Shown here in pieces: positions 2,683-64,000 of a stretch of DNA of 64,000 nt. Below the pieces are notes generated by a model that did no database searches, was not told the DNA's origin, and worked only from the letters and a program-made list of their open reading frames with translations. The position numbers and the translations under genes were made by a program. The stretch is from Polychytrium aggregatum (Eukaryota > Chytridiomycota > Chytridiomycetes > Polychytriales): NCBI RefSeq assembly GCF_025602895.1, contig NW_026516291.1:124001-188000 (forward strand). The letters run 5' to 3'. Each line of letters begins with the position of its first letter. Position 1 is the first letter of the stretch.

Positions 2683-5600
2683 ATGCAAATCAAATTCCAA
2701 GTCAACCCTGGAGCCCAGGCCGAAGCCGCTCACTTACTCTTCAAGCGCAAGGGTGGAGGAGGCAGAAGCGGCGGCGGCGGCGGCGGCGGTAGTGGTGGTG
2801 GTGGTGGTGGTGGTGGCCACTGGGATTGGGACCGTGGCCACCATGATAGTACCGGCTCATCAGTTAGTAAGTATCAGCTCTCCCGCGCTGGTGATTGGCG
2901 AAATGAAGCATTCGCAATCGGACAGCAACATAACTGGATTTGACCCTATATTCTTTCGTGACTTCTCCTCTCAATTACAGGCAATCCAATAAAAAACGGG
3001 ACACCCGGGTTTTGACCATTGATCGAATATTTTGTTACCCAATGTTATCGCGCGCTGGCCATGACCATTCGCCACACATCCGACTTTCGCACCGCCGCAT
3101 TGCGATGCTACGCCCTCATCCATAGCCTGCGTAAGGTCGCCTCCATATTCAGTGTATCCAAGAGCACCATCCATCGATGGCACCGAGGATGCAAGCTGGA
3201 TGGCCCATCCCGGGTCCCAGCTCGCAGATCCACTTTCTTCGAGCAGGCATGTCCAGTCATTCGCACCCTGATTGAACAGGACCCGTTCCAGACTGGTCCT
3301 GTGTTGCGGTGCAAGCTCGAGTCCATCCTCCAGAGGAAAGTATCACTCTCACTCTGCCACACTGCCATCCACCGAGCAGGTCTCTCACACAAGAGGGCAA
3401 CACACCTCTACAAGTCCAAGCGACTGGATGAGCGGGTGGCACAGTTCAGGGACCGGGTCCGCTCCATCGACCCACGACGATTCGTTTTTGTCGACGAGAC
3501 AGGGATCAGGAGATCCATTTTCCCTCTTTACGGATACTCGCCGAAGGGTGCTCCGCTTCGCCAGCGCAATCACATGAAGCACAAGTCTGTCTCGGCTGCA
3601 TTTGCAATCAACCACTCTGGTGTGCTGCATCGCATGTACATCCCCACATCATTCAAGACACACTCGATGGTCGAGTTCTTTGATCGAGCGAGCTTCCCAG
3701 ACGACTCTGTGATTGTGATGGACAATGTCAGCATGCACAAGACAATGGCTGTCCTGGACTGCATCGAGCGCCGAGGATGGTCAGTGATCTTCACCCCACC
3801 TGCCTCACTCGACTTCAATCCCATCGAGAACTTCTTTGGGATTGTGAAGCACCAGTACAGGAAGGTGGCAGCGCTGAATGCGTCCGAGGGGTTCAAGATC
3901 GGGATGGTCACATTGTTCGAGTCTGCCGTTCGGAGGGTGCTTCCAGATGTCTTCCCACGGCTGATTGAGCGATGCGCTTCTGGGGTTGAGTTCCCTCCAA
4001 TCAAGCCGCCATTTTCGCGCTCAAATCCCTGGCTTGAACCTCTCGGCGATTTTTGAACAGGGTCGCTTCCCAACCAGCCCGCAAAGACGGGCTCCTGCTC
4101 TCGGGTATAAATGCCGCACCTTCGTCCTGCTGCTTTCTTCCCTCATCTCGCCTTGATCTGATCATCGCGCTATTGTACGATAAAAAAAGTCTCTGCTCTG
4201 ACCAGTACCACTGGCAGACATCCAGCATCCTCTGCCCCCATGCCTCCGAAGCGCAAGGGTGCCGGTGATGGCCAGCCTCGGCCACCCAGGCCCAAGAAAG
4301 CCAAGTCACAGTCGGAGCCTGTCTCTGGTTCGTATTCTGACCCCACGCATGCTTGGTCGTCTGTTGCTCCGTCGCTCACCACCACTGCTTCTGCAGATCC
4401 AATGGATGTCGATCCCACCGAGCCTGGTCCATCTACTTCCTCGAGTACTGGCAAGCGATGTCCCAAGTGCGATGGCACCGATCACGAACGCTGCAACACC
4501 AACAAGTGTCCCAAATACCGGCCCCTCAAGAGTTCTGTCGTCCCACTCGTGGATGGAAGGTCATCCGCCCCTCAGTTCAGCTGCTTCAAGCAGACGATGG
4601 ATGGCTGTTGTCTCAATCCCGCTCTCCACGACAAGATCCAGGCCACCGTCGAGACCATGACCCAGATCCAGTTCGAGGCATCCAGGTTGCTCAACCTACA
4701 CATCCTGAGGTGCATCGAGCAGGATCTTCCCGTCCCTGTCATCTCCAGGGCCACCCCTGCTTTCATCCGCCAATGCTTCAGGATCGTCCAGGACGGTGCC
4801 CTCTCCCCGACCGGGGACAATGAGAAATACAACGAGCATCTGGTCGCTTCCTTTCGCGACTACCAGACCACTCGGCACGCAGACCTGCCTCCGGCCCCTC
4901 GTCTGCCTGATGGTGCTCACAGTCAGCTTCTCACACTGGCTGTCAATGCCTATGCCACCAACTGCACCACCCACCTCGACCTGGCCTACTGGCGACTCCT
5001 TCGCCGCTTCTGCGCTGCCGTCTTCCAGCCAACAAGCACAAGCACGAAGCCATCGAGGCTTGTCTCGAGCTCTTCGAGAAACCAGGGCAGACTCCACCCA
5101 AGGCCGATCTCGAGTTCCTCTATCCAGACTTTGGCCACGTCCTGGACGAGTTTCGGTACAACAACGACCAGGACCGCTTCCGGGCCCTCCATCGCCTCTC
5201 ACACCATGTGAGAATCCTCGCCCGAGACAAGATGCAGGACGATGTCCACAAGTGGATCGACTGTGACATGCCCGCTCTCCGAGTCACCGAACTGCAGCGC
5301 CAGGCCAAGCTGGACGAGCTCACTACCCAAGGCATTCCCTCCGACGACAAGAGGTTCACCACGGCCAAGTCTGAGCTCGGCACCACCAAGGCCAAGATCA
5401 ACAAGCTGGCATCCAGGATCAACTGGGCACTCAAGCAGCTCGCCGTCGACACTCCTCCGGCCGTGTGCACGATGGTCCCTCTCTGTACTGCAAGGGCCAA
5501 GTATGTCAAGATCGACACGGTCACTCTTTGGCAACTCCTGGGTCCAAAGAAGCGCCTTGGACTCACCAGGGACAAGCTCAAGGAAGAAGGTGAGGACGGT

Positions 5601-15384: not shown

Positions 15385-16231
15385 GGAGGCCAGCAACGGC
15401 CCGGCACTCCGTCTCCGACGATGAAATTCATCCATACGTTTCGCTCCACGATCGCTCTTCGAGCCGAGAGGGCGGCGCCAGAGATCCAGCGGGCAGAGGT
15501 TTGGAGGCTACGTCTCGCGTACATGGTTGAGGGCTGCGAGTCGGGAATGAGTAATGCCATTCAGATGCCGGAGAATAGACGGCAGACGCAAGCGGGGCAT
15601 ATAGGGGGGGCATGCAGCCTGGGTAATGGCGCATGAACGAGTGGCCCTCTTGGATACCGCAGGCAGAGTCGATAGCAGCCTCGATGGCATTGGCGATCGG
15701 GCGACTCTGAGGTGCGGCTGGGGTGGTGGTGGTGGTGCGTCGACGAACCTGGGAGATGAACAAGCGGGCAGGAAGAAGGGATCGAATGTGCTTTGTGTAG
15801 TCCAGAGCCACGATCGTCGAGAGGCCAGATGTGCAGCGGGTACCTGGAGAGAAAGAAGAAGCCGAGGGCGGTCGCCTCCGAGCAGGTCTTCAACGGTCTC
15901 GGGCAGGTCGCTGCTCCCACATCGGCTTTGGTCCCGGCTGGCCTCGGTTGCTCTCCGACCAAACGCCGCCTGGGCAGGAGCGCCACGTGACCCAGCACCC
16001 GTTGGGCCCGGAGCGGGCGTGGGGCCGTCCCGTCGGCGCCTCCGGGGGGCTGCCACAGGGGGCGGCGCAGGGGCGCAGGGGCCGGGGTGCCGCCTGCACG
16101 GCCTGCACGGCCTGCACAAACGAAACAGTTGAGACGGGAGCGGCCCCCAGGCCCGTGATGACTGCAGCGGGAATGGGTGCTGCTCCATTTTCTTGTACTA
16201 TTGCCGTATATTACAACGCAGTGTCCGTGCA
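15385..16231. other. Intergenic: E1-alpha promoter and SET/MYND 3' UTR
   Basis: About 850 bp with long overlapping open frames on both strands caused by high GC. There is a short tandem of GGCCTGCAC near 16098-16125. No convincing gene. Confidence 0.4.
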
Positions 16232-17819
16232 TCACGCCTTGCAAAGGTTGCACTTGCAAATAAGTTTGAACTGTGGCGTTGGAGCGGGAAGGATTCATTG
16301 CATCAAAGGGGTGCATGGAGCGCAAGCAGGGAGAGTGCAAGGAAACGAAAGAGAATACAGGCATTCGATCAGTACCACAGCTTTGCTCAGCACCGCCGCC
16401 AGCACTGGCTCGTCCTATCGCATGTCTCCACAGACCCGCGATCAAGCACAAGATACCCACACGGTCCTTTAACAGCGTCTTCCGGGCATTCTTGGAGAGG
16501 CTGTCCGTGCAGACGTAGCTGAGAGTCAGCTCGTCACCCTTGAGCACTTTAGTCTTGGACACGAGTGTGAGCTCGTGGTCGTCGCCTCGGAACTCGACTG
16601 CCGCATTGGGTGCGCAGGAGTGCGAGATGAAGCTGGAGATGTGATACACGCCGAGGCCCTTGGCGTTGTGCTTGGTAGCAACTCGTCCCTCGGTCCTGAG
16701 CTGATCCACCTCAGTGGACTTGCCCGTGATCTGGTAAGCGTTGAACTGGAACTTGGATCGAAGCTGCTCGTATCGTTCATCGTTGAAGACTGGGCGAGGG
16801 GCAGGGCGGAATGTGCAGATGGTGACAGTGGCGGAGAACATGCAGATGAGCCGTTGCGGGCTCTGCGTCAGTCCATATCCATCACCCTGTCAAGAATACG
16901 GCGGTTTGGTGCCTCGGCGACTCCATAATCGACTGAAGACACATATGCGAAACTCACAGCCATCGAAGCCAGGGACTTTGCTGCCCATGTGCTCGTCGAT
17001 CAGTGCTTTCTCGGCCATCAAATCGATTGTATCGAGCTTCAGGCGCTGGAGGCGTTCAACGTGGTCCCAGGTCGAATATCTTTCCTCCGGCTTTGACTCG
17101 CCGCTAGCTGTGCTTGTTTCGTTCTTTTGAGTTTCCTCGTGGACCAGCCTTCCCATGAATCGGGCAATCAGCATTACCATCAACGTGTCGTGGGTCTGGG
17201 CATAGAGCTCGAGGGGTGTTTGCGCATCGGCGGCTTGATCAGCACCGGGACACAGGAAGCCGTGGTAGAGAGTCGATGCAGTGCTCCTACAGCTTTCAGA
17301 GCAGTAGACTTGGCTGTGGCAGCTGCTGCAGTCGGGATATTCTTCGATATTGTCAGGGCTCAGAGTCTTGAGGCACTGGTCACACACACGGCCTCTCTGA
17401 TCGATAACCAAACCAACGACAGACACAACATATCGGGTCATTAGCATCATGACGAGAGTCAAATAGCCACTGCCAACGTCGTTCCGCATCTGCACGCGCT
17501 GCGCACTCACCTCCAGTCTCCAGTTCCGGGTCGAGGCAAGGGGCTGTTCCTGGTATATGACTTCGTTCTCCTCAAAGTCCTTCAGGGCAATCAGAGCGCG
17601 GCGGATCAGGCGCTTGCCGTCCGGAGTGGTTCCATGCACGACTTCCTCAACCTTGACGTTCATGGACTCGGCTGGAAAGATGTCAAAGTCTGATGGGTGG
17701 AGAACAGAGGCATCAGTGCCAGTCCATGCTGCTCGGCGAAATGGCACTGGGTCGAGGGCGAGGTGGTAGTGGGTTTTCCACTCGATAAACTCGCTTCCGT
17801 CCCCTGTCCAGCATCGCAT
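16232..17819 (-). CDS. SET and MYND domain protein (SMYD-type lysine methyltransferase)
   Basis: Firm exons are 17819-17511, 17396-16958, one ending at 16461, and 16270-16232. The exon start between 16957 and 16790 is uncertain because no single acceptor fits the phase perfectly; a small extra exon (about 16929-16890) is likely. The N-terminal half-SET segment precedes a MYND zinc finger (CDQC, CSSCHSQVYCSESC, then H and C). Next come the central helices and the SET core (ISSFISHSCAPNAAVEF, GDELTLSYV). A tiny 39-nt last exon supplies the post-SET cysteines (FKLICKCNLCKA, stop). The NHSC-type motif reads SHSC here. The family transfers methyl groups from SAM to lysines on histones or cytosolic proteins; the substrate is unknown. 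Confidence 0.75.
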
Positions 17820-24422: not shown

Positions 24423-24450
24423 TACAGTCTATCCAGAAAGAAACGGGACA
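24423..24450 (+). repeat. Terminal inverted repeat (Fanzor-side end) of the deletion derivative
   Basis: 28 bp from the TA, sharing TACA...CAGAAA.AAACGGGACA with the right ends of the full-length copies. Confidence 0.8.
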
Positions 24451-24464
24451 GTTCCTTCCTGGCT

Positions 24465-25187
24465 TCAGAGGCCTGAACCCCGCTGACTGACTGTCGGCCC
24501 AGCGGGCAGGCCATGGCATTGCACTCCTGTCTTCGTTGGCAATCGCTTTGTTTTCGTTGATTTCGGGAGCATGGTCTTGAATACACCCGGCCGATCTCCT
24601 GTGGCGATGATCGACTGGCATACCGAGATCATGTTCCTGGCTGCATTGATGTCTCGATCCCACAGCGTATGGCAGCTTGCACAGCTCCGGACAAAGTGTG
24701 GTTTCTCGATATCAAGATACTCGGGTGACTCAAGTCGCTTGAATTCCCGGCAATGTGAGCACACCTGGGATGTGTTGAACTCGTTCACCGAGCACACATG
24801 GATCTTGGAGACGGATCGGTCTGGTGGGCGTCTCTGGTGGTGTATGAACTGCTCAAAGTATTTGGCAAGCCTGAGTCTCCTGGGACTGGATGCATATCCC
24901 TTCCTTTGCTTCCAGGATGCATTCCCAAAGGCAATCACAATATCGGTCTCCCTTGGTGCCTGGTCGATGACTTGCTTGCACATCTCGTGGACGGTGCGCT
25001 GTCGCTTGCCGTAGAGATCGAGTCGCTTGAATCGCCGTCGCCGGGTCAGGCTGAAGTACAGCTGTTTGTCCAGCATGTCTCCATCGAACACATGGCGAAT
25101 GTATTGCAGGAAGGAAGCCACCCAGGGATCTTGGGACTTGGTGTGGTGCTCATCCAGCGCATCTTGGGCTGGAAGCGATTCACACAA
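24465..25187 (-). pseudogene. Fanzor C-terminal remnant
   Basis: A 240-codon open frame matching the last third of the intact Fanzors. It keeps DIVIAFGNASW, the NEFNTSQVCSHC motif with its Glu, the second zinc pair (CASCHTLWDRD) and RDINAARNM with the RuvC-III Asp. The RuvC-I Asp and the recognition lobes are lost, so it cannot be a nuclease. The frame is still open despite many substitutions from copies 1-3; that may be chance, or the short product or RNA may still be made. Confidence 0.75.
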
Positions 25188-25278
25188 TGGCGTCCTTGAT
25201 TCAAATCACAGAATGGTCATGGCCAGCGCGCGATTGTATTGGGTAATAAAATATTTGATCAATCGTCAAAATCACGGG

Positions 25279-25306
25279 TGTCCCGTTTTTTATTGGATCG
25301 ACTCTA
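25279..25306 (-). repeat. Terminal inverted repeat (transposase-side end) of the deletion derivative
   Basis: 28 bp ending at TA 25305-25306; its reverse complement carries CCAATAAAAAACGGGACA, as in the left ends of copies 1 and 2. Confidence 0.8.
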
Positions 25307-39373: not shown

Positions 39374-39536
39374 GCCGTTGATGGCGCTGAGGCCGGCGAT
39401 CAAACGGGGCGGTCCAAGCCGATCCAAGGTGATCTGGCGCAAGTTACTGAAGTTGACAGTCACAGGGCTCTGCTGCTACTGATGCATCGGCTGCTCACCC
39501 AAGCCCGCGGACGGCGTGTGATTGAATGGCGCTGAT

Positions 39537-39564
39537 TACAGGCAATCCAATAAAAAACGGGACA
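39537..39564 (+). repeat. Left terminal inverted repeat, copy 2
   Basis: 28 bp identical to the left end of copy 1, starting at the duplicated TA. Confidence 0.85.
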
Positions 39565-39621
39565 CCCGGGTTTTGACCATTGATCGAATATTTTGTTACC
39601 CAATGTTATCGCGCGCTGGCC

Positions 39622-40554
39622 ATGACCATTCGCCACACATCCGACTTTCGCACCGCCGCATTGCGATGCTACGCCCTCATCCATAGCCTGCGTAAGGTCG
39701 CCTCCATATTCAGTGTATCCAAGAGCACCATCCATCGATGGCACCGAGGATGCAAGCTGGATGACCCATCCCGGGTCCCAGCTCGCAGATCCACTTTCTT
39801 CGAGCAGGCATGTCCAGTCATTCGCACCCTGATTGAACAGGACCCGTTCCAGACTGGTCCTGTGTTGCGGTGCAAGCTCGAGTCCATCCTCCAGAGGAAA
39901 GTATCACTCTCACTCTGCCATACTGCCATCCACCGAGCAGGTCTCTCACACAAGAGGGCAACACACCTCTACAAGTCCAAGCGACTGGATGAGCGAGTGG
40001 CACAGTTCAGGGACCAGGCCTGCTCCATTGACCCGCGGCGATTCGTTTTTGTCGATGAGACAGGGATCAGGAAATCCATTTTTCCTCTTTACGGATACTC
40101 GCCGAAGGGTGCTCCTCTTCGCCAGCGCAATCACATGAAACACAAGTCTGTCTCGGCTGCATTTGCAATCAACCACTCTGGTGTGCTGCATCGCATGTAC
40201 ATCCCCACATCATTCAAGACACACTCGATGGTCGAGTTCTTTGAGCGAGCGAGCTTCCCAGACGACTCTGTGGTTGTGATGGACAATGTCAGCATGCACA
40301 AGACAATGGCTGTCCTGGACTGCATCGATCACCGAGGATGGTCAGTGATCTTCACCCCACCTGCCTCACTCGACTTCAATCCCATCGAGAACTTCTTTGG
40401 GATTGTGAAGCACCAGTACAGGAAGGTGGCAGCGCTGAATGCGTCCGAGGGGTTCAAGATCGGGATGGTCACATTGTTCGAGTCTGCCGTTCGGAGGGTG
40501 CTTCCAGATGTCTTCCCACGGCTGATTGAGCGAGCGATGCGCTTCTGGGGTTGA
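39622..40554 (+). CDS. DD34E Tc1/mariner-type transposase (copy 2)
   Basis: 310 aa from ATG 39622, ending LIERAMRFWG. This C-terminus is shared with copy 3 and is therefore probably ancestral. The helix-turn-helix (SIFSVSKSTIHRWHRGC) and the catalytic motifs FVDETG, VVMDNVSMHK and NPIENFFG are all present. A few substitutions (for example DQACSID for DRVRSID, CIDHRGW for CIERRGW) separate it from copy 1. No stop or frameshift, so it is a candidate autonomous transposase that could also mobilise the other copies. Confidence 0.9.
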   Translation: MTIRHTSDFRTAALRCYALIHSLRKVASIFSVSKSTIHRWHRGCKLDDPSRVPARRSTFFEQACPVIRTLIEQDPFQTGPVLRCKLESILQRKVSLSLCHTAIHRAGLSHKRATHLYKSKRLDERVAQFRDQACSIDPRRFVFVDETGIRKSIFPLYGYSPKGAPLRQRNHMKHKSVSAAFAINHSGVLHRMYIPTSFKTHSMVEFFERASFPDDSVVVMDNVSMHKTMAVLDCIDHRGWSVIFTPPASLDFNPIENFFGIVKHQYRKVAALNASEGFKIGMVTLFESAVRRVLPDVFPRLIERAMRFWG

Positions 40555-40780
40555 GTTCCCTCCAATCAAGCCGCCATTTTCACGCTCAAATCACTGGCTT
40601 GAACCTCTCGGCGATTTTTGAACAGAGTCACTTCCCCAACCAGCCCGCAAAGACGGGTTCCTTCGTCCTGCTGCTTTCTTCCCTCATCTCGCCTTGATCT
40701 GATCATCGCGCTATTGTACGATAAAAAAAGTCTCTGCTCTGACCAGTACCACTGGCAGGCATCCAGCATTCTCTGTCCCC

Positions 40781-43153
40781 ATGCCTCCGAAGCGCAAGGG
40801 TGCCGGTGATGGCCAGCCTCGGCCACCCAGGCCCAAGAAAGCCAAGTCACAGTCGGAGCCTGTCTCTGGTTCGTATTCTGACCCCACGCATGCTTGGTCG
40901 TCTGTTGCTCCGTCGCTCACCACCACTGCTTCTGCAGATCCAATGGATCTCGATCCCACCGAGCCTGGTCCATCTACTTCCTCGAGTACCGGCAAGCGAT
41001 GTCGCCAGTGCGATGGCACCGATCACGAACGTTGCAACACCAACAAGTGTCCCAAATACCGGCCCCTCAAGAGCTCCGTCGTCCCACTCGTGGATGGAAG
41101 GTCATCCGCCCCTCAGTTCAGCTGCTTCAAGCAGACGATGGATGGCTGTTGTCTCAATCCCGCTCTCCGCGACAAGATCCAGGCCACCGTCGAGACCATG
41201 ACCCAGATCCAGTTCGAGGCATCCAGGCTGCTCAACCTGCACATCCTCCGGTGCATCGAGCAGGATCTTCCCGTCCCTGTCATCTCCAGGGCCACCCCTG
41301 CTTTCATCCGCCAATGCTTCAAGATCGTCCAGGACGGTGCCCTCTCGACGGCCAGGGACACCAAGAAATACAACGAGCATCTGGTCGCTTCCTTTCGCGA
41401 CTACCAGACCACTCGGCACGCAGACCTGCCTCCGGCCCCTCGTCTGCCTGATGGTGCTCACAGTCAGCTTCTCACACTGGCTGTCAATGCCTATGCCACC
41501 AACTGCACCACCCACCTCGACCTGGCCTACTGGCGACTCCTTCGCCGCTTCTGCGCTGCCGTCTTCCCTGCCAACAAGCACAAGCACGAAGCCATCGAGG
41601 CTTGTCTTAAGCTCTTCGAGAAACCAGGGCAGACTCCACCCAAGGCCGATCTCGAGTTCCTCTATCCCGAGTTTGGCCACGTCCTGGACGAGTTTCGGTA
41701 CAGCAACGACCAGGACCGCTTCCGGGCCCTCCATCGCCTCTCACACCATGTGAGAATCCTCGCCCGAGACAAGATGGTCGACAATGTCCACAAGTGGATC
41801 GACTGTGACATGCCCGCCCTCCGAGTCACCGAGCTGCAGCGCCAGGCCAAGCTGGACGAGCTCACTACCCAAGGCATTCCCTCCGACGACAAGAGGTTCA
41901 CCACGGCCAAGTCTGAGCTCGGCACCACCAAGTCCAAGATCAACAAGCTGGCATCCAGGATCAACTGGGCACTCAAGCAGCTCGCCGTCGACACTCCTCC
42001 GGCCGTGTGCACGATGGTCCCTCTCTGTACTGCAAGGGCCAAGTATGTCAAGATTGACACGGTCACTCTTTGGAATCTCCTGGGTCCAAAGAAACGCCTT
42101 GGACTCACCCGGGACAAGCTCAAGGAAGAAGGTGAGGACGGTGTCAACAACCAGGATCGTCTCTGGCGCAGTTGCTTCAAGCTGCGTAGTTCCCTCTTCC
42201 AAGAGCGGGTCAGGGACAAGAAGCTGTTCAACTACGAGATCAGCACCGATGGCATTGGATGCACCATCGGTCTCGTCAAGTTTGTGCGTCGAACCGATCA
42301 CACCGAGACCATCGAGCCTCCTCCGACTTCCGAGCAGCGCATCCAGGCCCACATCGGCGACCCAGACCCCAACCGCACCACTTGGATTGGCATCGATCCT
42401 GGAGTCGGCTCCATCTTCACGGCGGTCATCCAAGCACCGGGCCACCAAGACGAGGTGGTCTCATTCTCCAATGGCCACTACCAGCACATGTGTGGCCATA
42501 CGTCCAACACCAAGTGGCACAATATCATGAAGTATCGACTCAGCATCGAGACCTGGATGTCGACCACCCCCTCGCCCAAGGTGTCGTCCTCGGAGGCTTT
42601 CAAGGTCCATCTCACCCATGTCCTGCGACCGGAGCTGCGAGTGCAGCTCGACTTCCACCTTGGCAAGAAGGCCCGTCACCATCGCTTCATGGGCCACAAG
42701 AGGCGCCAAGTGGCCGTCGACAGGATGTGCAAGGCCGTCCTGAAGCACGCCCCGATACGGACCGATGTGGTGATCGCCTTTGGCAATGCGTCATGGCGCC
42801 AAGGCAAGGGCTATGCATCCAGCCCTCGGAGGCAGCGGTTTGCTCGGTACTTTGAGCAATTCGAGCACCACCGACGCCGTCCCAATCACCCTCATGGAAG
42901 CGTCAAGGTGGCCTCGACGAACGAGTTCAACACCTCGCAAGTGTGCTCCAAGTGCCTGGAGCCAGTTCGGTTGGAAGGACTCGATGCGCCCAGTGTTGCG
43001 AATTCCCACTTTGTCAGGAGCTGCAAGAATCCCAGCTGCCGGACAGTGTGGAATCGCGACGTCAATGCGGCGCGCAACATGATCACAGTATGCAGGTCGA
43101 TTGTGGAGATCGGAGAGCGACCGGCGGTCTTCACTCGGAGGCTGCCAAAGTGA
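40781..43153 (+). CDS. Fanzor, eukaryotic TnpB-like RNA-guided endonuclease (copy 2, intact)
   Basis: 790 aa without introns. The N-terminus is a basic nuclear signal (PPKRK, RPPRPKKAK, residues 2-22), then a Ser/Pro-rich spacer and a Cys/His knuckle (C74, C77, H82, C85, C90). The middle ~440 residues are helical and probably bind RNA and DNA. The C-terminal RuvC-like nuclease shows D539 (IGIDPGVGSIFTAV) and D760 (RDVNAARNM). The zinc finger is C722-C725/C748-C753. At the usual RuvC-II Glu position the sequence reads VVIAFGNASW, with no Glu. E715 in NEFNTSQVCSKC matches the relocated glutamate I recall for Fanzors. Family members cut DNA guided by an element-encoded RNA. Activity here is inferred. 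Confidence 0.9.
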   Translation: MPPKRKGAGDGQPRPPRPKKAKSQSEPVSGSYSDPTHAWSSVAPSLTTTASADPMDLDPTEPGPSTSSSTGKRCRQCDGTDHERCNTNKCPKYRPLKSSVVPLVDGRSSAPQFSCFKQTMDGCCLNPALRDKIQATVETMTQIQFEASRLLNLHILRCIEQDLPVPVISRATPAFIRQCFKIVQDGALSTARDTKKYNEHLVASFRDYQTTRHADLPPAPRLPDGAHSQLLTLAVNAYATNCTTHLDLAYWRLLRRFCAAVFPANKHKHEAIEACLKLFEKPGQTPPKADLEFLYPEFGHVLDEFRYSNDQDRFRALHRLSHHVRILARDKMVDNVHKWIDCDMPALRVTELQRQAKLDELTTQGIPSDDKRFTTAKSELGTTKSKINKLASRINWALKQLAVDTPPAVCTMVPLCTARAKYVKIDTVTLWNLLGPKKRLGLTRDKLKEEGEDGVNNQDRLWRSCFKLRSSLFQERVRDKKLFNYEISTDGIGCTIGLVKFVRRTDHTETIEPPPTSEQRIQAHIGDPDPNRTTWIGIDPGVGSIFTAVIQAPGHQDEVVSFSNGHYQHMCGHTSNTKWHNIMKYRLSIETWMSTTPSPKVSSSEAFKVHLTHVLRPELRVQLDFHLGKKARHHRFMGHKRRQVAVDRMCKAVLKHAPIRTDVVIAFGNASWRQGKGYASSPRRQRFARYFEQFEHHRRRPNHPHGSVKVASTNEFNTSQVCSKCLEPVRLEGLDAPSVANSHFVRSCKNPSCRTVWNRDVNAARNMITVCRSIVEIGERPAVFTRRLPK

Positions 43154-43253
43154 TCTGTTTTATTTCTTGTGGCTTTGCTTGACGCGAGCACAGCACATAC
43201 TACATGTTCATGGAAACGGCTATATTGTCCCGTTTTTTTCTGAATAAAGTGTA
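43154..43253 (+). ncRNA. Candidate guide-RNA scaffold region, copy 2
   Basis: 100 bp from the Fanzor stop to the right TA, nearly identical to copies 1 and 3. A guide transcribed past the end would begin ATCGCCCGGCTG. Placement follows known TnpB/Fanzor loci; no RNA evidence. Confidence 0.3.
43226..43253 (-). repeat. Right terminal inverted repeat, copy 2
   Basis: 28-bp right end, reverse complement starting TACACTTTATTCAG and reaching ACGGGACA. Confidence 0.85.
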
Positions 43254-44310
43254 ATCGCCCGGCTGAACGATGTCGTTCTCACTGTTGCGATGCTGGCAAG
43301 ATGGACAAACTCGAAGGGACAGGCTCGATGGGGCGGCCATGATTTGCCGACTTGCTCGTTCACGCCGAGTCCGTGATGTGCATGATGCGCATGATATGCA
43401 TACTATGTATGCTATGCATGATATGATATGATCCAGCCGCAACAGACGATGCGTCCGATTGCCGAAAGCCTCTCTGCCCAATCACAACCAAGTCCGATAT
43501 GTCCCAAGAGTCAGCCGACGGGGGCAGAGTCGGCGCCATTTGACCGATCAAGGCTTCTTCACATGTCGCTGAGGGCTTTGCGCTGGCTCGGCGTGGTCGA
43601 TGGCGCCCCTGACCGCCTTTCGGGAAGCGAAGAACGTCCCGATGGATCCTGCGAAGGCGCCAGGGCAAGTGGCTGGACGACAAGAATGAGTTGCCGCGAC
43701 CTGGCCCTGCCGCAGCCGATACGCCAGCTGCACTCTGTGGCTCAAATGCCGATATCGATGGATGCAATGCTATCCGAGTATGTGCATCCCGATTGCCATT
43801 TGGGCCGCCACGCCAAGGCTGATCGGCGGTCGAGCCACTCTCGCTGGGCCCAGGGAAGTGGTCGTCGATCCCGCGCGGTGTCGGATCGTCGCCAGGCGGG
43901 ATCGCCAATCGCCAGTCCACCGGCGTCGGAGAGCGGCTGCCCCTCTGCGCTGCCGCTGCGGTGCGGATGTCGATGGAAACCGCAGCGGCTACTGCGATCC
44001 AGACGGCGACGGCAGTGGCGATGTCGACGCTGGCGGATGTGTGGGCATGGGCGTGGGTATAAAAGGCCGCTGCTGGCCCGCACGTCTGCATCCCCACTTT
44101 CGTTTTCATCGTCATCACCTGCCCATCCTCCCAAGCCCGCTCTGCTCGTCGCCCCGGGCTGCAAGACTTGGCCCCCCTCCTGTCTGGCTCCTTTTCCCTC
44201 GCCGTCTGAACCCGATCCCCTCCGATCGTCTCTGTCATCGTCATCCTCGGTTCTCCAGGCCTCGCTTCCCCCCGTCCCTCGCTCGCTCCTTTGCTCTCCT
44301 CCCGCCCCCC
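43254..44310. other. RAD6 upstream region
   Basis: About 1.06 kb between transposon copy 2 and RAD6. It contains an AT-rich, palindrome-rich patch (GATATGCATACTATGTATGC and neighbours, 43375-43432) and, near the gene, a TATA box and a long pyrimidine-rich leader. Open frames on both strands look random. Confidence 0.45.
44058..44066 (+). promoter_or_regulatory. TATA box of RAD6
   Basis: TATAAAAGG, a strong match to the eukaryotic TATA consensus, about 245 bp before the RAD6 start codon and followed by a C/T-rich leader. Confidence 0.6.
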
Positions 44311-50610: not shown

Positions 50611-53600
50611 GTTCTCCCTCCACAGATCCAGCACGCTCTCAAAAGAATGAAGGGCGGCGAGAAGAGTGGACAATCTGTCATCATCCAACCCATCTTCATG
50701 TGGTCGACTGTGGAGACGAAGAGTGGCGGATCGGCTTTCGTCAAGTACTTCCCATCCATCCATGAGTTCCCCGACTACACGCCGATCCATGAGAAGAGTC
50801 CGTTGTTTGATGGCAAGCTAATGTCGATCCGCGAAACCTTTGCCGAGTTGATGAAGCTGCAGGCCCTCGATGCTGCGGATGGAAACGCTCTCAGGAGGTA
50901 TGGATTTCGCTGTCGCATGGAACCTTGTTGGCACGAACTCACGCCCTTTCTATTTGACAGATTGGTGCACAATATTCGTGAGCTCATAACCAAGACTTCC
51001 ATTGCCGACAAGCAAGGCGATATCTACACGAAAGGCGGCAATGTCGTCCTTACCGCCCAACAGGACTCGCTCCTGCGATCGCTCCTCGATCCCGTCGACT
51101 CGAGCCTGGACAGACGGGCACTCGAGGATCTGTATGTCGAGGGCACCCGCCAGTGGCTGTTTGACCAAACCACCGACTGGATCAACCAGGATACCACCGA
51201 CACTGTCCTGTGGGTCAATGCCGTCGCCGGTGTGGGCAAGTCTGTCGCTGCCGCTCAGATCGCCAACATCCTCACTGCATCCAACCAGCTGGTGACGGCG
51301 CTGTTCCTCAAGTACAACGACACCCGCAAGAGCGATCCACGAGTGGTGCTGAACACCCTCGCATACGGTCTGTGCAAGTGGTACTCGCCGATCGGCCGCA
51401 AGCTGCTCGACGCTGGCCACACCAAGGACGACCTCGACAAGATGAGCATCAACGATCTGTTCAAGGCCGTGATTGCCGATCCACTCGAAGCCATTGGCAA
51501 CTACAAACCCAAGGGATCGGTGATGATTCTGGTGGATGCACTCGACGAGTGCTCTCCGCGCGATCAGCTGCTCAGTCTGCTTGCCTGGCGCTTCGTCGAA
51601 CTGAACAAGACTCGTCCGTGGCTCAAGCTGCTGCTGACATCCCGACCCGAGGAGGACATCAAAGCAGCATTCGATGGAGTCGCGACCAAGACGATCGAAC
51701 CCTCGAGTGAGGAGAACATCCGCGACCTCCGGGTGTTCATCCGCCACCGACTTCGAGTGCATGACACTCTCAGCGAGTCGGACCGCATCGAGGCAGTCGC
51801 CATCCTGCTGGACCAGTCCAAGACATTCGTGTGGATCAACCTGATCCTCAACACTGTCGACGCAGCAGCCAAGAGCGGCCCAGTGACACTCACCACGATC
51901 AAGGACATCAACGACAGCGCCGCCGATGTCGGGCAGCTGTACCACAAGACATTCGCCAAGATCCACTCGCAGTCGAGCCACCCGGCCGAGCTGGTCACGG
52001 TGGTGTCGGCGATCGCCACGGCCCAGTCGATCCTGACAACACAGATCATCGTCGATGTGTTTGGACTCGAGATCGGCGTCGTTCGCGAGTGTCTCAAGAG
52101 CCTCAGTCTGGTCCTCGATCCTGGCGCCAATGGACTGGGTCCCCGAGACAGCCAGTCCACCAACAACGAGGTCAAGTTCAACCACAAGTCGGTGGCGGAC
52201 TATCTCCTCGGCGACGCATCAACTGGCCATCCGTGGCATGTGTCGGACTCGTTCCACACGGTGTTTGCCAAGGGATGTCTCGGCGTGATCCTCTCGCACG
52301 AGCCAGTGGTCAACATCTGCGACATCTACGACTTTCACGACAAGATCCCAGACCTCGAGGACAGGGTCGCAGACAAGATCACACCGTCGCTGCGATACAG
52401 CGTCGCCCACTGGATCACACACTTTGTGTGGTGTGTGGAAGGAGTGGCCGAGTCGAGTTCGGTGTGGCAGTCGGCCGAGATGGTTGATGTGGCAGCGGTG
52501 CTCACTCGGTTCGTCAAGACCCATGTGTTCTTCTGGCTCGAGTGTGGATCGCTCACACATGTGGTCAAGCCGATCATCGAGCAACTGGCTGTGCTGCGAG
52601 GAGCGATCGTCAAGGCACCCAGCACCATCGTCGACGACACCACGAAGGAACTGGTCAAGGACACGTACCGATTCATCCGCGAGTTTGCCGACCCGATCAT
52701 CAAGAGTGCACCACAGGTGTACAACTCGGGGTATGCATTCACACCGAAGGATACCGTGATCTACAAGACATATGCCGACCAGCTCGAGGGCGAGATCCCG
52801 TTTGAAGTTAAAACTGGACTTGATTCCACTTGGGGTGCTTGTGAATCCACTCTCCTTGGTCATATGCGGGATGTCAAGTGCGTGGCCATATCCTCCGATG
52901 GCAAGTGGATCGTATCCGGATCAAAAGATGCGACCATCAAGGTGTGGGACGTCGGTACTAGTCAAGTGAAATTTGCTCTTGAGGAACATACTTCCTGGGT
53001 AACCTCCGTGACTATCTCACCTGATGACAAGTGGATTGTCTCTGGCTCAAGTGACAGAACCGTCAAAGTATGGGATTCCGCCACGGGCCAGCTGGAGCAT
53101 AGCTTCGAGGGGCACACAAGTCGTGTAAACTCTATTGCAATCTCACCCGATGGCAAGTCGATCGTCTCTGGGTCGAGTGACAAAACCATCAAAATATGGG
53201 ATGCCACCACAAGCCAACTGAAGAATACACTCATTGGTCATCGGAATGGAATTTGCTCCGTTTCCATTTCACCCGATAGCAAGTCTGTAGTCTCTGGATC
53301 TTTCGATAAAACCATCAGAATGTGGAATGTCGACGGCCTGGAGCTCTACTCGATTGATGCCGCACACAGCGGGCCAGTCAACTGTGTTGTGTTTTCCCCC
53401 GATGGAAGCAAGGTGATTTCCGGATCATCTGATTCTCAGATCAAGGTCTGGAATGCCTCCACGCAGGAGGAGATATGCGCTCTCTCTGGACACAACGGCA
53501 AAGTCACTTCAATCGCCATCTCTCCTGATTGCAACCACATCATCTCAGGCTCCTTCGACTCCAACGTGGTTCTTTGGGATCTGAGATCAAACTTCAAGGT

Positions 53601-55530
53601 ACGCGAATACCATGGACACACTCAGAATGTCAGGGCCGTCGCCATATCCCAGAATGGCCGATTTGCAGTCTCAGGCTCAGGATTCCACAACCAGCCTGGT
53701 GAAATCAAAATATGGGATCTCACTGTCCCCCATCCCGAACGAGACCCACACACGCATTCAATGATGGTGATGTCGGTGTGTCTATCGAAAAACAAAAGAT
53801 TCATCGTTTCAGGCTCAAGCGATAATACTGTCCGGAAATGGAGAGCCGATGACGGAAGCTTCGTCGAATCGCTCTGGAGCCACGAAGATGGGGTGGCATC
53901 GGTAGCCATATCTAATGACGGCGAAGTTATTGCCTCGGGCGCCTTTGATGGATGCATTATGGTGAGAAACAGAAACTCGGAAATGCCCCGAATCATCAGA
54001 GGACACTCTCAGTTCATCAATCCAAACGAGATCAAACCAGAAGGAGGCCCTCGATCTGGATCAGAATTCGCGGAATCAAGAGTTTGGGATCAGTATGGAC
54101 AGCTTCTTGTCCCACTCGAATCATATCGCTTCTGGTTCCACTGGGCGCTTTATTCCGTCAGTGGGGACATCATGGTCACCGAATCCAAAGACAAGTCCCC
54201 CTCGATTTGGAACACTGCTACGGGTGAGAATATTGCGAGGCTGTATGGCCACACAGATGACGTCACCACTATTGCAATATCGGCCGATGGCCGTTCCATC
54301 GCCACGGGCTCCAAGGATTGTACCATCAAGATGTGGGAAGTCTCGAACTTCACTGAGTATTTGAGTATTCCTGTCATCAATGCCTATGCGAAGCGAATCA
54401 CGCTCTCGAAAGATGGACAAACTCTCGCCGTTCTTCGCAGCGACGGTGTTGTGCAAGTTTGGAAGCTTCCGAGCACCACGGCTCTCTTCACAAGCACCAC
54501 TCACAACAACACGGCAATCGACATTGCTCGAGACGCAAGCTTCCTCATTATTGGCTCTCGCGAGAGTATCACACAAGTCGATTTGAAAAATCGCAATGCA
54601 AAGGTCATCCAGGTCGACAACCTTATAACGTCTGTTGCCATCTTACCCGATGGGAAGGAATTTGTCACCGGCTCTGTCGACAAGAAGCTCCGAAAGTGGA
54701 ATGTCGGTGATATGAAGCAAGTTGGAAAAGATCTGAATCATAAAGGAAACATAAGATCAATTATTGTATCCGAAGATGGTTGCTATATAGTCGTGCGAAT
54801 ATCCCACAACGACGTCATCATATGGAAGCGAGATCTGACTCTGCACCAGTATTTGTCTGGGCACGCTGGCAGCGTCAGATCCGTCGCCTTGACTCCGGAC
54901 GGTCAGCAGATGGTATCAGCCGCGGATGACACCATCATCAAAGTCTACGATATGTCCAAGGACAAAAGTCGAAATCTCTATGGTCACAGCCGCGGGGTGT
55001 ATTCAATCGATATCAGCCCTTCCGGCCATGAAATTGTATCCACTTCCGATGACAACACGATCCGCCGCTGGAATTTCCTTTCAGACGCTGGCAAGATGAT
55101 CACCGAAGGTTCACAAGCACATGTATCAATTTCATATAGAGACGATACCACCTTGATTTCCAGGACGAATGACAACGAAATATGGGAATGGAAGCTTGTG
55201 AATGAGCAATATCAAGGAACTAAACTGGATATTCGATATCCTCTGGGGCAATTTGCAGCCATCGATCTCGGCAACTGGAGACTTCAGGAGAATGCCCAGT
55301 CGCAGCTCTGGTTCCGTAATGGGCGGAGCATGTTCAAAGCACCACAATCGATCCCGTGCGGATCAAGATCCAGTGTGAACTCCAAAGGCGATCTTTGCCT
55401 GTTCACAAATCGACCCCTGTTGATCTCGGTAAGTACTCTCGTGACGAACCGCCCGGCTGTTTTCTTGATGACATTCCAGGTATCATCATCTCCGTCTTAC
55501 CAACACATGTCACGTCTGCCTCTCAGTTGA
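50097..55530 (+). CDS. TIR-NACHT-WD40 NLR-type immune/incompatibility receptor
   Basis: Exons 50097-50182, 50250-50493, 50626-50897, 50961-55428 and 55480-55530, phases consistent; 1,706 aa. Residues 21-115 form a TIR domain: YDIHDVFISYR, YLDNTCLCDGAEWEQGF, NVIVLLLS, and DNQFLEIQHAL with E110 at the place expected for the NADase glutamate. A NACHT NTPase follows: Walker A VNAVAGVGKSVAAAQ near residue 290, Walker B MILVDALDECS near 390, then TSRPEEDI. After helical linker regions come a dozen or more WD40 repeats (about 830-1570); the first ones are very alike (SPDGKSIVSGSSDKTIKIWD). Fungal NLRs of this build act in non-self recognition and regulated cell death. The 63-nt intron at 50898 has no in-frame stop and could be retained. 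A truncated relative lies at 644-2551. Confidence 0.88.
50544..50610. repeat. (CTCTCA)n microsatellite in NLR intron 2
   Basis: About eleven perfect hexamer units forming most of the pyrimidine-rich part of the 132-nt intron that ends at 50625. Length changes could affect splicing of the TIR-coding exons. Confidence 0.9.
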
Positions 55531-58469: not shown

Positions 58470-59924
58470 ATGAACACCCCAACCGGCAACGACAACTCAA
58501 CCGTCGATCGGATGGGCAAGGTCTGCGGACTCAACGGTCTCGGCATGATCGCCATCATCTTCTCCAACGAACGCTTCTCCCTCTCGCTCACCCTCGAAGA
58601 AATCGCACAGTTGCTTCTGCTCTGTCGAGACGCCCGAGGCGCCTTGAATTCCAAGCTGAACCGCTTCCGGCGCTGGTGCCGGGGTGTCGGGCTTTTGCAT
58701 CGCCAAGGAGGGCCTCTGCCGCATCTCGTCAGCGCCAGCGAAATGTGCTTCGTCTCGCGCTGCTTCAGCGACCAGGCTGTCAACGATCTCTCCTGGCTTG
58801 TTTCGCGGGCCGAGCAAGGAGATGTCGTCGTGTCGTTTTTCCTGGCCCTTGTTCTTCTGAATGGGCTCTTGAATGGGCTTCCGGAGCCGGAGCAGCACGG
58901 AAGCATGCCCGAGGGCCAACCGACCCAGTCCACAGGATGGGAACAAGTCATCTATTATCTGGAGAAGGCTACGGATGCTGGCCATTCCCGGGCGCAGTAC
59001 TACCTGGCCCAATGCCTCTACTACGGCTATGGAATTTCCATAGACCACACCAAGGCCGTCCAGCTGTACCATGGAATTGCGAACCAAGGATTCGCACCCG
59101 CCCAGATCGCCCTCGGCCGCTGCCATGAAGACGGATATGGGGTCGACCAAGATTACGACAAGGCCGTCGGATGGTATGCCGAGGCTGCCGCTCAAGGTGA
59201 CGAGGGTGCCCGGACCGCGATTGCGTTTCTGAGAGCCTGGTTCGCTCTGGCGGGCTGGGGTGTTCCGCAAAGCGACGTCGATGCTGTTAGCCTTTGGCAG
59301 CAAGTCCGGGACAGGTCCGCCGGTACTACCCACAGGTCTATCGCCTTGCACATGCTCGGCTGGATGCACTACCTCGGCCGGGGCACAAAGAAGGACTGGC
59401 GCAAGGGAGCCCGGCTGATGCAGGAGGGTACCTCGGACGAATTCCCCCTGGATCCGGACGTCGTTTTGGCTGCAAAGAGATCCTCGTTTGGCTCCGACAC
59501 CCTGGCAGCCCGCAAGTTCTTGAAGCTGTGTGAATATGGCTCGGAGCGCGACTGGTTATGCAAGCATCTCGTCGCAGTCTGCATGATCAACGGGTTTGGA
59601 AGGAGCAGAAACGAAGCGACGGCGTTTGGGATTTTCGAAGAGCTCGCCAACCAAGGGCACAGTGACAGCCAGTTCTGGACGGGAAAGTGCTACTTTGATG
59701 GCCTTGGAGTATCGGTCGACAAGGCGAAGGCGTTCGAGTGGTCCAGCAAGGCAGCAGGGCAGGGCAACTCATACGGGCAGCGATGGATCGGATATTGCTA
59801 TGAGTGGGGAGCAGGTGTCTCCCATAACCGCACCAAGGCAATTGAGTGGTACCGCAGATCCGCCGACCAGAGCAATAGAGACGGGCAGGATTGCATCAGA
59901 ATCTGCAACTACCAGGACTTCTAG
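58470..59924 (+). CDS. Sel1-like repeat (SLR) protein
   Basis: An intronless 484-aa frame from ATG 58470. After an N-terminal ~150 residues without a recognised domain come solenoid repeats of about 36 residues with the Sel1 pattern. Examples are AQYYLAQCLYYGYGISIDHT, AQIALGRCHEDGYGVDQDYD, SQFWTGKCYFDGLGVSVDKA and GQRWIGYCYEWGAGVSHNRT. Middle repeats are degenerate. Sel1 proteins are scaffolds, for example in ER-associated degradation or chitin synthase regulation. Without a signal peptide or membrane span this one is probably cytosolic. The lack of introns stands out among its intron-rich neighbours and fits an expanding SLR family. Confidence 0.8.
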   Translation: MNTPTGNDNSTVDRMGKVCGLNGLGMIAIIFSNERFSLSLTLEEIAQLLLLCRDARGALNSKLNRFRRWCRGVGLLHRQGGPLPHLVSASEMCFVSRCFSDQAVNDLSWLVSRAEQGDVVVSFFLALVLLNGLLNGLPEPEQHGSMPEGQPTQSTGWEQVIYYLEKATDAGHSRAQYYLAQCLYYGYGISIDHTKAVQLYHGIANQGFAPAQIALGRCHEDGYGVDQDYDKAVGWYAEAAAQGDEGARTAIAFLRAWFALAGWGVPQSDVDAVSLWQQVRDRSAGTTHRSIALHMLGWMHYLGRGTKKDWRKGARLMQEGTSDEFPLDPDVVLAAKRSSFGSDTLAARKFLKLCEYGSERDWLCKHLVAVCMINGFGRSRNEATAFGIFEELANQGHSDSQFWTGKCYFDGLGVSVDKAKAFEWSSKAAGQGNSYGQRWIGYCYEWGAGVSHNRTKAIEWYRRSADQSNRDGQDCIRICNYQDF

Positions 59925-61213: not shown

Positions 61214-61241
61214 TACACTTTATTCAGAAAAAAACGGGACA
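61214..61241 (+). repeat. Right terminal inverted repeat, copy 3
   Basis: 28 bp from the duplicated TA, reading TACACTTTATTCAG and on to ACGGGACA, identical to the other right ends. Confidence 0.85.
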
Positions 61242-61313
61242 ACATAGCCGTTTCCATGAACATGTAGTATGTGCTGTGCTTGCGTCAAGCAAAGCCACAA
61301 GAAATAAAACAGA
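61214..61313 (-). ncRNA. Candidate guide-RNA scaffold region, copy 3
   Basis: Again exactly 100 bp from the Fanzor stop to the element end. A transcript crossing the end would carry a guide from host bases 61213 downward (TTTCGGTCGAAAG on the minus strand). Inferred only. Confidence 0.3.
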
Positions 61314-63680
61314 TCACTTTGGCAGCCTCCGAGTGAAGACCGCCGGTCGCTCTCCGATCTCCACAATCGACCTGCATACTGTGATCATGTTGCGCGCCGC
61401 ATTGACGTCGCGATTCCACACTGTCCGGCAGCTGGGATTCTTGCAGCTCCTGACAAAGTGGGAATTCGCAACACTGGGCGCATCGAGTCCTTCCAACCGA
61501 ACTGGCTCCAGGCACTTGGAGCACACTTGCGAGGTGTTGAACTCGTTCGTCGAGGCCACCTTGACGCTTCCATGAGGGTGATTGGGACGGCGTCGGTGGT
61601 GCTCGAACTGCTCAAAGTACCGAGCGAACCGCTGCCTCCTCGGGCTGGATGCATAGCCCTTGCCCTGTCGCCATGACGCATTGCCAAAGGCGATCACCAC
61701 ATCGGTCCGTATCGGGGCGTGCTTCAGGACGGCCTTGCACATCCTGTCGACGGCCACTTGGCGCCTCTTGTGACCCGTGAATCGATGGTGGCGAGTCTTC
61801 TTGCCAAGGTGGAAGTCGAGCTGCACTCGCAGCTCCGGTCGCAGGACATGGGTGAGATGGACCTTGAAAGCCTCCGAGGACGACACCTTGGGCGAGGGAG
61901 TGGTCGACATCCAGGTCTCGATGCTGAGTCGATACTTAATGGTGTTGTGCCACCTTGTGTTGGACTTGTGGCCACACATGTGCTGGTAGTGGCCATTGGA
62001 GAATGAGACCACCTCGTCTTGGTGGCCCAGTGCTTGGATGACCGCCGTGAAGATGGAGCCGACTCCAGGATCGATGCCAATCCAAGTGGTGCGGTTGGGG
62101 TCTGGGTCGCCGATGTGGGCCTGGATACGCTGCTCGGAAGTCGGAGGAGGCTCGATGGTCTCGGTGTGATCGGTTCGACGCACAAACTTGACGAGACCGA
62201 TGGTGCATCCAATGCCATCGGTGCTGATCTCGTAGTTGAACAGCTTGTGATTGATATCCCGGTCACGGAAGAGGGAGCTACGCAGCTTGAAGCAACTGCG
62301 CCAGAAACGATCCTGGTTGTTGATGCCGTCATCACCTTCTTCCTTGAGCTTGTCCCTGGTGAGTCCAAGGCGCTTCTTTGGACCCAGGAGCTCCCAGAGA
62401 GTGACCGTGTCAATCTTGACATACTTGGCCCTTGCAGTGCATGGAGGAACTATCGTGCACACGGCCGGAGGAGTGTCCAGAGCGAGCTGCTTGAGGGCCC
62501 ACTTGATCCTGGATGCCAGCTTGTTGATCTTGGCCTTGGTGGTGCCGAGCTCAGACTTGGCCGTGGTGAACCTCTTGTCGTCGGAGGGGATGCCTCTGGC
62601 AGTGAGCTCGTCCAGCTTGGCCTGGCGCTGCAGCTCAGTGACTCGGAGGGCGGGCATGTCACAGTCGATCCACTTGTGGACATTGTCGACCATCTTGTCT
62701 CGGGCGAGGATTCTCACATGGTGTGAGAGGCGATGGAGGGCCCGGAAGCGGTCCTGGTCGCTGCTGTACCGAAACTCGTCCAGGACGTGGCCAAAGTCTG
62801 GATAGAGGAACTCGAGATCGGCCTTGGGTGGAGTCTGCCCTGGTTTCTCGAAGAGCTCGAGACAGGCCTCGATGGCTTCGTGCTTATGCTTGTTGGCAGG
62901 GAAGACGGCAGCACAGAAGCGGCGAAGGAGTCGCCAGTAGGCCAGGTTGAGGTGGGTGGTGCAGTTGGTGGCATAGGCATTGACAGCGAGAGTGAGAAGC
63001 TGACTGTGAGCACCATCAGGCAGACGAGGGGCCGGAGGCAGGTCTGCGTGCCGAGTGGTCTGGTAGTCGCGAAAGGAAGCGACCAGATGCTCGTTGTATT
63101 TCTCATTGTCCCCGGTCGGGGAGAGGGCACCGTCCTGGACGATCTTGAAGCATTGACGGATGAAAGCAGGGGTGGACTTGGAGATGACAGGGACGGGAAG
63201 ATCCTGCTCGATGCACCGGAGGATGTGCAGGTTGAGCAGCCTGGATGCCTCGAACTGGATCTGGGTCATGGCCTCGACGGTGGCCTGGATCTTGTCGCGG
63301 AGAGCGGGATTGAGACAACAGCCATCCATCGTCTGCTTGAAGCAGCTGAACTGAGGGGCGGATGACCTTCCATCCACGAGTGGGACGACAGAACTCTTGA
63401 GGGGCCGGTATTTGGGACACTTGTTGGTGTTGCTTCGCTCCTGGTCGGTGCCATCGCACTGGCGACATCGCTTGACAGGACCAGATGAGGGACCAGGCTC
63501 GGTGGGATCGACATCCATTGGATCTGCAGAAGCAGTGGTGGTGAGCGACGGAGCAACAGACGAACAAGCATGCGTGGGATCAGAATACGAACCAGAGACA
63601 GGCTCCGACTGTGACTTGGCTTTCTTGGGCCTGGGTGGCCGAGGCTGGCCATCACCGGTACCCTTGCGCTTCGGAGGCAT
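61314..63680 (-). CDS. Fanzor, eukaryotic TnpB-like RNA-guided endonuclease (copy 3, intact)
   Basis: 788 aa, co-linear with the copy 2 protein. It is two residues shorter in the Ser-rich spacer (PGPSSGPVKRCRQC against PGPSTSSSTGKRCRQC). All features are kept: basic N-terminal nuclear signal, Cys/His knuckle, RuvC-I IGIDPGVGSIFTAV, the Glu-less VVIAFGNASW block, NEFNTSQVCSKC, the second Cys pair and RDVNAARNM. Scattered substitutions (for example FTGHKRR, DTPPAVCTIVPPC) do not touch catalytic residues. With its upstream TATA motif retained, this is the best candidate in the window for an expressed nuclease. Confidence 0.9.
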   Translation of the reverse strand: MPPKRKGTGDGQPRPPRPKKAKSQSEPVSGSYSDPTHACSSVAPSLTTTASADPMDVDPTEPGPSSGPVKRCRQCDGTDQERSNTNKCPKYRPLKSSVVPLVDGRSSAPQFSCFKQTMDGCCLNPALRDKIQATVEAMTQIQFEASRLLNLHILRCIEQDLPVPVISKSTPAFIRQCFKIVQDGALSPTGDNEKYNEHLVASFRDYQTTRHADLPPAPRLPDGAHSQLLTLAVNAYATNCTTHLNLAYWRLLRRFCAAVFPANKHKHEAIEACLELFEKPGQTPPKADLEFLYPDFGHVLDEFRYSSDQDRFRALHRLSHHVRILARDKMVDNVHKWIDCDMPALRVTELQRQAKLDELTARGIPSDDKRFTTAKSELGTTKAKINKLASRIKWALKQLALDTPPAVCTIVPPCTARAKYVKIDTVTLWELLGPKKRLGLTRDKLKEEGDDGINNQDRFWRSCFKLRSSLFRDRDINHKLFNYEISTDGIGCTIGLVKFVRRTDHTETIEPPPTSEQRIQAHIGDPDPNRTTWIGIDPGVGSIFTAVIQALGHQDEVVSFSNGHYQHMCGHKSNTRWHNTIKYRLSIETWMSTTPSPKVSSSEAFKVHLTHVLRPELRVQLDFHLGKKTRHHRFTGHKRRQVAVDRMCKAVLKHAPIRTDVVIAFGNASWRQGKGYASSPRRQRFARYFEQFEHHRRRPNHPHGSVKVASTNEFNTSQVCSKCLEPVRLEGLDAPSVANSHFVRSCKNPSCRTVWNRDVNAARNMITVCRSIVEIGERPAVFTRRLPK

Positions 63681-63807
63681 GGGGGCAGAGAATGCTGGAT
63701 GCCTGCCAGTGGTACTGGTCAGAGCAGAGACTTTTTTTATCGTACAATAGCGCGATGATCAGATCAAGGCGAGATGATGGAAGAAAGCAGCAGGACGAAG
63801 GTGCGGC

Positions 63808-63814
63808 ATTTATA
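63808..63814 (-). promoter_or_regulatory. TATA-like box upstream of Fanzor, copy 3
   Basis: TATAAAT on the minus strand, about 130 bp before the Fanzor ATG, equivalent to 4106-4112 in copy 1. Confidence 0.4.
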
Positions 63815-63930
63815 CCCGAGAGCAGGAGCCCGTCTTTGCGGGCTGGTTGGGGAAGCGACCTGTTCAAAAATCGCCGAGAGGTTCAAGCCAGGGATGTGAA
63901 CGCGAAAATGGCGGCTTGATTGGAGGGAAC

Positions 63931-64000
63931 TCAACCCCAGAAGCGCATCGCTCGCTCAATCAGCCGTGGGAAGACATCTGGAAGCACCCTCCGCACGGCA
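63931..64000 (-). CDS. Transposase C-terminus, copy 3 (partial)
   Basis: The last ~22 codons of the DD34E transposase, ending LIERAMRFWG as in copy 2. The rest lies beyond the window. Confidence 0.8.
   Translation of the reverse strand, partial: AVRRVLPDVFPRLIERAMRFWG

Follow-up and report, generated by a model that had tools for sequence, protein, structure and literature searches.

Mariner elements that carry a Fanzor1 protein were described as PUl-1 and PGv-1 by Bao and Jurka in 2013 (PMC3627910). The left inverted repeat of Spu-1 in Spizellomyces punctatus follows a conserved CA, and the target-adjacent motif (TAM) of its Fanzor1, SpuFz1, is CATA (Saito et al. 2023, PMC10432273). Many Spu-1 copies are nuclease-less 'ghosts' in which the CA motif and the RNA of the right end persist, and the role of Fanzor for its host transposon was given as unknown in the same paper. 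The DNA analysed here, the window, is a stretch of 64,000 nucleotides of Polychytrium aggregatum, contig C407:124001–188000 of a 64.7-Mb genome in 418 contigs. Judged from its motifs, the element at 39537–43253 of the window is an IS630/Tc1/mariner element carrying a Fanzor1-type protein. The mariner and Fanzor architecture has been known since 2013; new here is a strongly one-sided T at the left ends. The reading we favour, with some reserve, is of an autonomous IS630/Tc1/mariner transposon in which Fanzor1 would serve as an RNA-guided retention device.

As in PUl-1 and PGv-1, a mariner-like transposase and a Fanzor1 occur in one element with terminal inverted repeats (TIRs) and TA duplications (here putative), while PGv-1 differs in being single-copy and in encoding a third protein (PMC3627910). 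The available part of that text mentions neither a one-sided flank rule nor a TAM or guide RNA for these two, and they were compared by description. With Spu-1 the element shares a Fanzor1, TIRs and conserved bases before the left end, whereas Spu-1 is 2.1 kb long with no transposase found within its ends, the present element being 3,717 bp with a transposase; the SpuFz1 TAM is CATA compared to a predicted TTA here, and the Spu-1 loci number 42 plus 134 compared to 246 right-end matches here (PMC10432273). In the SfAV and IS607-lineage Fanzors and TnpBs, the TIR and the target-site duplication are predicted to lie within the scaffold of the right-end element RNA (reRNA), as they are here, although those systems belong to other transposon families and to virus or bacterial hosts (PMC10711439). 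Many copies are not in themselves a novelty, since some Fanzor transposons were already noted to reach hundreds of copies (PMC10711439). A literature search over titles and abstract openings, with subscription papers mostly outside it, found, among the entries listed, no one-sided target rule for a transposase-bearing mariner/Fanzor element.

The composite element and its two proteins

The features of the element, its flanks and its further copies in the window were as follows (aa, amino acids; ORF, open reading frame; W, A or T).

39537..43253, + strand: complete composite mariner/Fanzor element, 3,717 bp, TA at each end
39537..39564, + strand: left TIR, 28 bp; 327 genome-wide pattern matches, control 0
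43226..43253, + strand: right TIR, last bases GTGTA
39622..40554, + strand: DD34E IS630/Tc1/mariner transposase, 310 aa, intact, from motif and profile matches
40781..43153, + strand: Fanzor1 protein, 790 aa, intact, with D539 (DPG), E715, D760 and a zinc ribbon
39535..39538, + strand: left-flank motif ATTA, a conserved T plus TA, from genome-wide left flanks; predicted TAM (W)TTA
43154..43253, + strand: predicted reRNA/omega-RNA scaffold ending in the right TIR hairpin, from conservation and modest folding; 5' limit provisional
43254..43268, + strand: predicted guide, about 15 nt of host flank past the right end, by analogy with SpuFz1 (PMC10432273) and the SfAV Fanzor (PMC10711439)
2976..6710, + strand: second copy; transposase ORF of 331 aa, Fanzor frame-shifted
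61214..64000, − strand: third copy, running past the window edge; intact Fanzor of 788 aa (61314–63680)

An earlier note on this DNA had proposed a mariner-type transposon carrying a Fanzor, and this was borne out by the TIRs, the TA ends, the DD34E transposase and the Fanzor1 signature. The transposase and Fanzor ORFs are co-oriented. The ends it described as matched are indeed inverted repeats, but only 21 of the 28 positions are identical and 7 differ (counted by eye). Of 30 sequences in which the two ends could be found, 28 had TA at each, the remaining two representing one site. All three copies reported for the window were recovered; a repeat scan showed them to be about 96–97% alike, the Fanzor of copy 2976–6710 is broken into pieces of 323 and 356 aa by a frame shift, and the left end of the minus-strand copy at 61214 lies beyond the window edge.

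The catalytic triad of the transposase, D145, D221 and E256, was located where the note had placed it, with 34 residues between the last two. Profile matches were obtained to DDE_3 (5.9e-21) and to IS630 (NF033545; 2.9e-32, above the cut-off). The Tc3-type helix-turn-helix family PF01498 was absent from the element, its single genome match lying elsewhere.

The 790-aa ORF is intact, as claimed, and contains a Cas12f1-like TNB domain (PF07282; 6.2e-9) that was matched by 21 of 21 members of the aligned set. A DPG motif, a relocated catalytic Glu, a Gly at the old Glu position and an NRD motif have been used to define Fanzors (PMC10711439). The DPG motif could be identified at RuvC-I (D539-P-G in WIGIDPGVGS), the shifted Glu is E715 in NEFNTSQVC, six residues ahead of the zinc-ribbon cysteine C722, and the canonical TnpB Glu position is occupied by G668 in FGNASW. 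Both E715 and G668 were invariant in 21 of 21 aligned sequences, and the third catalytic Asp (NRD) is D760. When the 21-sequence profile was searched against PDB (E up to 5), it matched SpuFz1 (E = 0.001) and the Guillardia theta Fanzor1, GtFz1 (E = 0.056), and no others, over the C-terminal 63–84 positions of the Fanzor. The motifs and these two matches together place the protein with Fanzor/TnpB, one of the points on which the note had staked its claim. Its membership in Fanzor1 is well supported, and RNA-guided DNA cutting by it is predicted. The N-terminus carries basic runs resembling nuclear localization signals (PPKRK, RPKKAK) and a Cys/His knuckle, both recognised by eye. The AlphaFold2 model, built from 21 sequences of which 20 were near-identical and one a partial relative, was unusable (mean predicted local distance difference test score 37.6). 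A scan of viral contigs with the protein gave two stretches matching a pattern, none of which was confirmed as a relative.

The one-sided T and the predicted guide RNA

The base before the exact left ends was T in 172 of 178 and another base in 6, in a count that kept duplicate contigs and in which two of the six non-T ends are one site. Counted on both strands of the window, T stood before 12.3% of 2,402 TAs, which gives the background frequency. The extracted left flanks revealed T at −1 in 30/31 and A or T at −2 in 25/31; these 31 remained from 34 flanks (T in 32) after the left end of a second family, a spurious match in L010 and a near-duplicate (copy 2976 and L007) had been removed. The mirror base, A, followed 17 of 100 listed exact right ends and was present in 9 of 48 extracted right flanks, which is background-like (p 0.17). 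Target preferences of Tc1/mariner transposases are usually symmetric. Such a symmetric preference is inadequate here, because T on the left and A on the right should then be equally common. A duplication of 3 bp, TTA, was ruled out by the right end, which reads GTGTA. Left ends that are closely similar but carry AGTC at positions 4–7 were preceded by T in 8/14 among those following A, C or T, obeying the rule more weakly than the main family (p 9e-6; 3e-5 once a site counted twice is merged).

The TAM of the Fanzor is predicted to be 5'-(W)TTA-3', since in SpuFz1 the TAM CATA equals the CA before the left end plus TA. The element's own right end offers GTA in place of TTA, and the donor element would therefore escape self-cutting.

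The right end, a candidate guide RNA scaffold, is conserved: among 19 copies, each site being represented once, 7/100 positions of the last 100 bp were variable compared to 45/251 of the intergenic spacer (p 0.008). The right TIR pairs with upstream sequence as a hairpin, with folding z-scores of −2.27 (60 nt), −1.30 and −1.42 (104 nt) and −1.88 (200 nt), while the left end showed no folding (0.06 and 0.22). A z of −2 was also reached by 4 of 60 random 60-mers of the window, and the hairpin evidence is therefore supportive only. Among seven right ends of related families, four gave z-scores of −1.66 to −2.26, two were weak (−0.66 and −0.78) and one showed no fold (0.63). Six of the seven second-family right ends inspected re-create the TIR hairpin with another 5' arm, and a MAFFT alignment of the right ends of both families splits the 5' arm. 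Rfam at the gathering threshold gave no match in the 64-kb window.

Copies, derivatives and the retention reading

A whole-genome count with the element ends, suggested by the earlier note, was conducted with patterns allowing up to 3 mismatches (34 bp for the right end). It revealed 246 right ends and 327 left ends against 0 for the reversed-pattern control; sites on two contigs are counted twice, and the left-end figure may be raised by related families whose left ends resemble these. At least 23 matches (query included) among the best 40 of 1316 candidates cover more than 99% of the full element at 96–100% identity. The copies in the genome number well over a hundred.

Exact pairing of ends, drawing on the first 100 exact matches of the left and of the right list, gave 47 elements known by size only: 18 of 3,718–3,763 bp, 23 of 3,177–3,658 bp and 6 short ones of 283, 312 (three), 383 and 1,114 bp. 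Seven mid-size copies (L025–L031) were mapped and carry deletions in the transposase region, with a Fanzor of 766–790 aa in six of the seven. Three mapped short copies (283–312 bp) retain 99–105 nt of the left end and 168–216 nt of the right end; two mapped copies of 1,114 bp retain 665 nt on the left and 448–449 nt on the right, with part of both ORFs gone. Across 31 copies, comprising 24 full-length ones (copy 2976 included) and the seven deletion derivatives, 28 had a Fanzor of 766–790 aa compared to 19 with a transposase of 310 aa or more (Fisher p 0.016); the transposase state of L030 was judged from its deletions. The ratio of nonsynonymous to synonymous polymorphism (pN/pS) over the 24 full-length copies was 0.32 for the Fanzor and 0.22 for the transposase.

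The retention reading is favoured because of the Fanzor1 signature, the one-sided T and the conserved right end, and because the Fanzor is intact more often than the transposase while short derivatives retain the right end. The transposase, as is usual in its family, would excise the element and reinsert it at a TA. Transcription of the right end, beginning close to where the Fanzor ORF stops and running through the terminal TA, would yield a guide RNA that has host sequence adjoining the insertion as its final 15 nt or so, both steps being modelled on SpuFz1. The Fanzor would then recognise TTA plus the guide sequence, a combination present only at the empty site, and cut it, and repair from a filled sister or homologue would restore or spread the element. 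The element's right end, with GTA in place of TTA, would be spared.

Several observations weigh against this reading. The folding z-scores are modest, at −1.3 to −2.3. A guide RNA overlapping the Fanzor ORF found no support from synonymous sites, as variable synonymous sites in the last 40 codons (2/16 compared to 88/303) did not differ significantly (p 0.25). A single-sequence PDB search returned LaTranC (E 0.53) and SpuFz1 (E 0.56), neither significant. The TA duplication is only inferred, because an empty site was not found. The 31 copies are the best search matches, which biases them toward intact ones, five sites are represented twice, and the deletion classes reflect few events that were amplified. 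Finally, all five exactly paired copies of 283–383 bp, too small for either ORF, also follow the T rule; the three mapped short copies that obey it retain the predicted guide-RNA region.

This last observation leads to a serious contender, to which we would give somewhat under an even chance: that the one-sided T reflects target choice by a transposase with non-equivalent ends, to which the Fanzor later matched its TAM. The seven differences between the 28-bp TIRs are in line with it, and co-evolution of nuclease and transposase has been proposed (PMC10711439). The AGTC-type elements with similar left ends, which may use another transposase, follow the T rule too weakly for it to fit well, and the usual symmetry of target choice in this family also argues against it. 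A Fanzor carried as a passenger without a present cis role, hitch-hiking on spread by the transposase alone, would agree with the statement that a host function is known for no Fanzor (PMC10432273), but is improbable in view of the Fanzor pN/pS, its intactness in 28/31 copies despite being a 2.5-fold longer target than the transposase, and the fact that the only one of 47 sized pairs that could mean Fanzor-only loss (1,114 bp) is of a length at which both mapped copies lost parts of both ORFs.

To return to retention by the Fanzor, the one-sided WTTA rule may, as a tentative proposal, be its footprint: the element would insert at TA in either orientation, only insertions with a T beside the left end being restorable after excision and hence persisting. 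If true, the Fanzor would have influenced, genome-wide, where well over 100 insertions lie and which way they point, and the insertion pattern would amount to a naturally occurring trace of RNA-guided selfish retention in a eukaryotic genome. The element offers both intact proteins in one short unit, many natural copies that each have a predicted guide, a predicted TAM, and derivatives whose deletions set its components apart from one another; with these, the idea of retention can be tested in yeast.

Activity, duplicate contigs and neighbouring features

Current or very recent activity, as suggested by the earlier note, was not borne out. Sixteen joined-flank junctions were searched against the genome, and no spanning match and thus no empty allele was found among the best 40 of 614 candidates; the absence of polymorphic insertions, which the note had named as counting against it, stands in this one assembly. 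Four spanning matches among the extracted loci were rejected: two lay in one locus (L010, L019), where neighbouring repeats adjoin the element, and the other two, 58 nt long with 76% identity, were at one site (L002 and W2). At 8 of the 16 sites, a second contig with the same flank was present among the matches listed, the match ending at the junction (counted by hand). The mean pairwise difference among 24 copies was 3.5%. The Fanzor is of near-full length in most copies, copy 2976 being frame-shifted, and pN/pS is below 1. Intact frames and the pN/pS values are compatible with recent mobility under selection.

Five sites are occupied on each of two duplicate contigs, and the paired elements differ by 1.1, 2.6, 2.6, 3.4 and 3.8%, more than their flanks (1.45 kb, n = 10), seven of which are 99.8–100% identical and three 97.7–98.8%, with gaps or a repeat region. 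Each copy as assembled may therefore be mosaic, whether through assembly or through gene conversion, and with such mixing neither current activity nor copy age is readable from divergence. We give about even chances to the explanation that a single locus was assembled both as C407 and as C112 and that element variants were assigned to the wrong copies, which would bear on activity and age and not on the identity of the element. Four elements and one related left end recur on the two contigs at a nearly constant offset (about 805.5 kb), and the closeness of seven of ten flanks (about 0.2% or less) points the same way. On the other side, gene conversion between copies would give the same picture, and the variants themselves look real, being mostly substitutions with transitions about twice as frequent as transversions and pN/pS below 1. 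The window region of C407 is seemingly repeated at C112:902–991 kb, suggesting haplotigs or a twice-assembled locus.

A second, related Fanzor family is represented in the window by one derivative.

24423..25306, − strand: 884-bp derivative of the second Fanzor family, encoding a 203-aa C-terminal piece with a TNB domain

The 203-aa piece matched the TNB domain at 6.2e-11, shares 57% protein identity with the main Fanzor and lies between ends of similar type; C112 carries the left-end pattern of this derivative too, at the corresponding offset. Right ends of the main family were also found at or beside ends of related elements (L010, about 5244–5456; L047, about 1500), as nested or adjacent insertions. 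A lone TIR-like sequence at 20082 (−) is a loose match, perhaps an older relative or chance.

Among the neighbouring genes, a WD40 gene (644–2482, −) and an NPHP3_N-WD40 gene (50647–55530, +), which we take to be NACHT-like, share a block of 880 bp at 97% identity. Adjoining SET and MYND ORFs (15561–17819, −; MYND just below the cut-off) and a Sel1-repeat gene (58470–59924, +) were also present.

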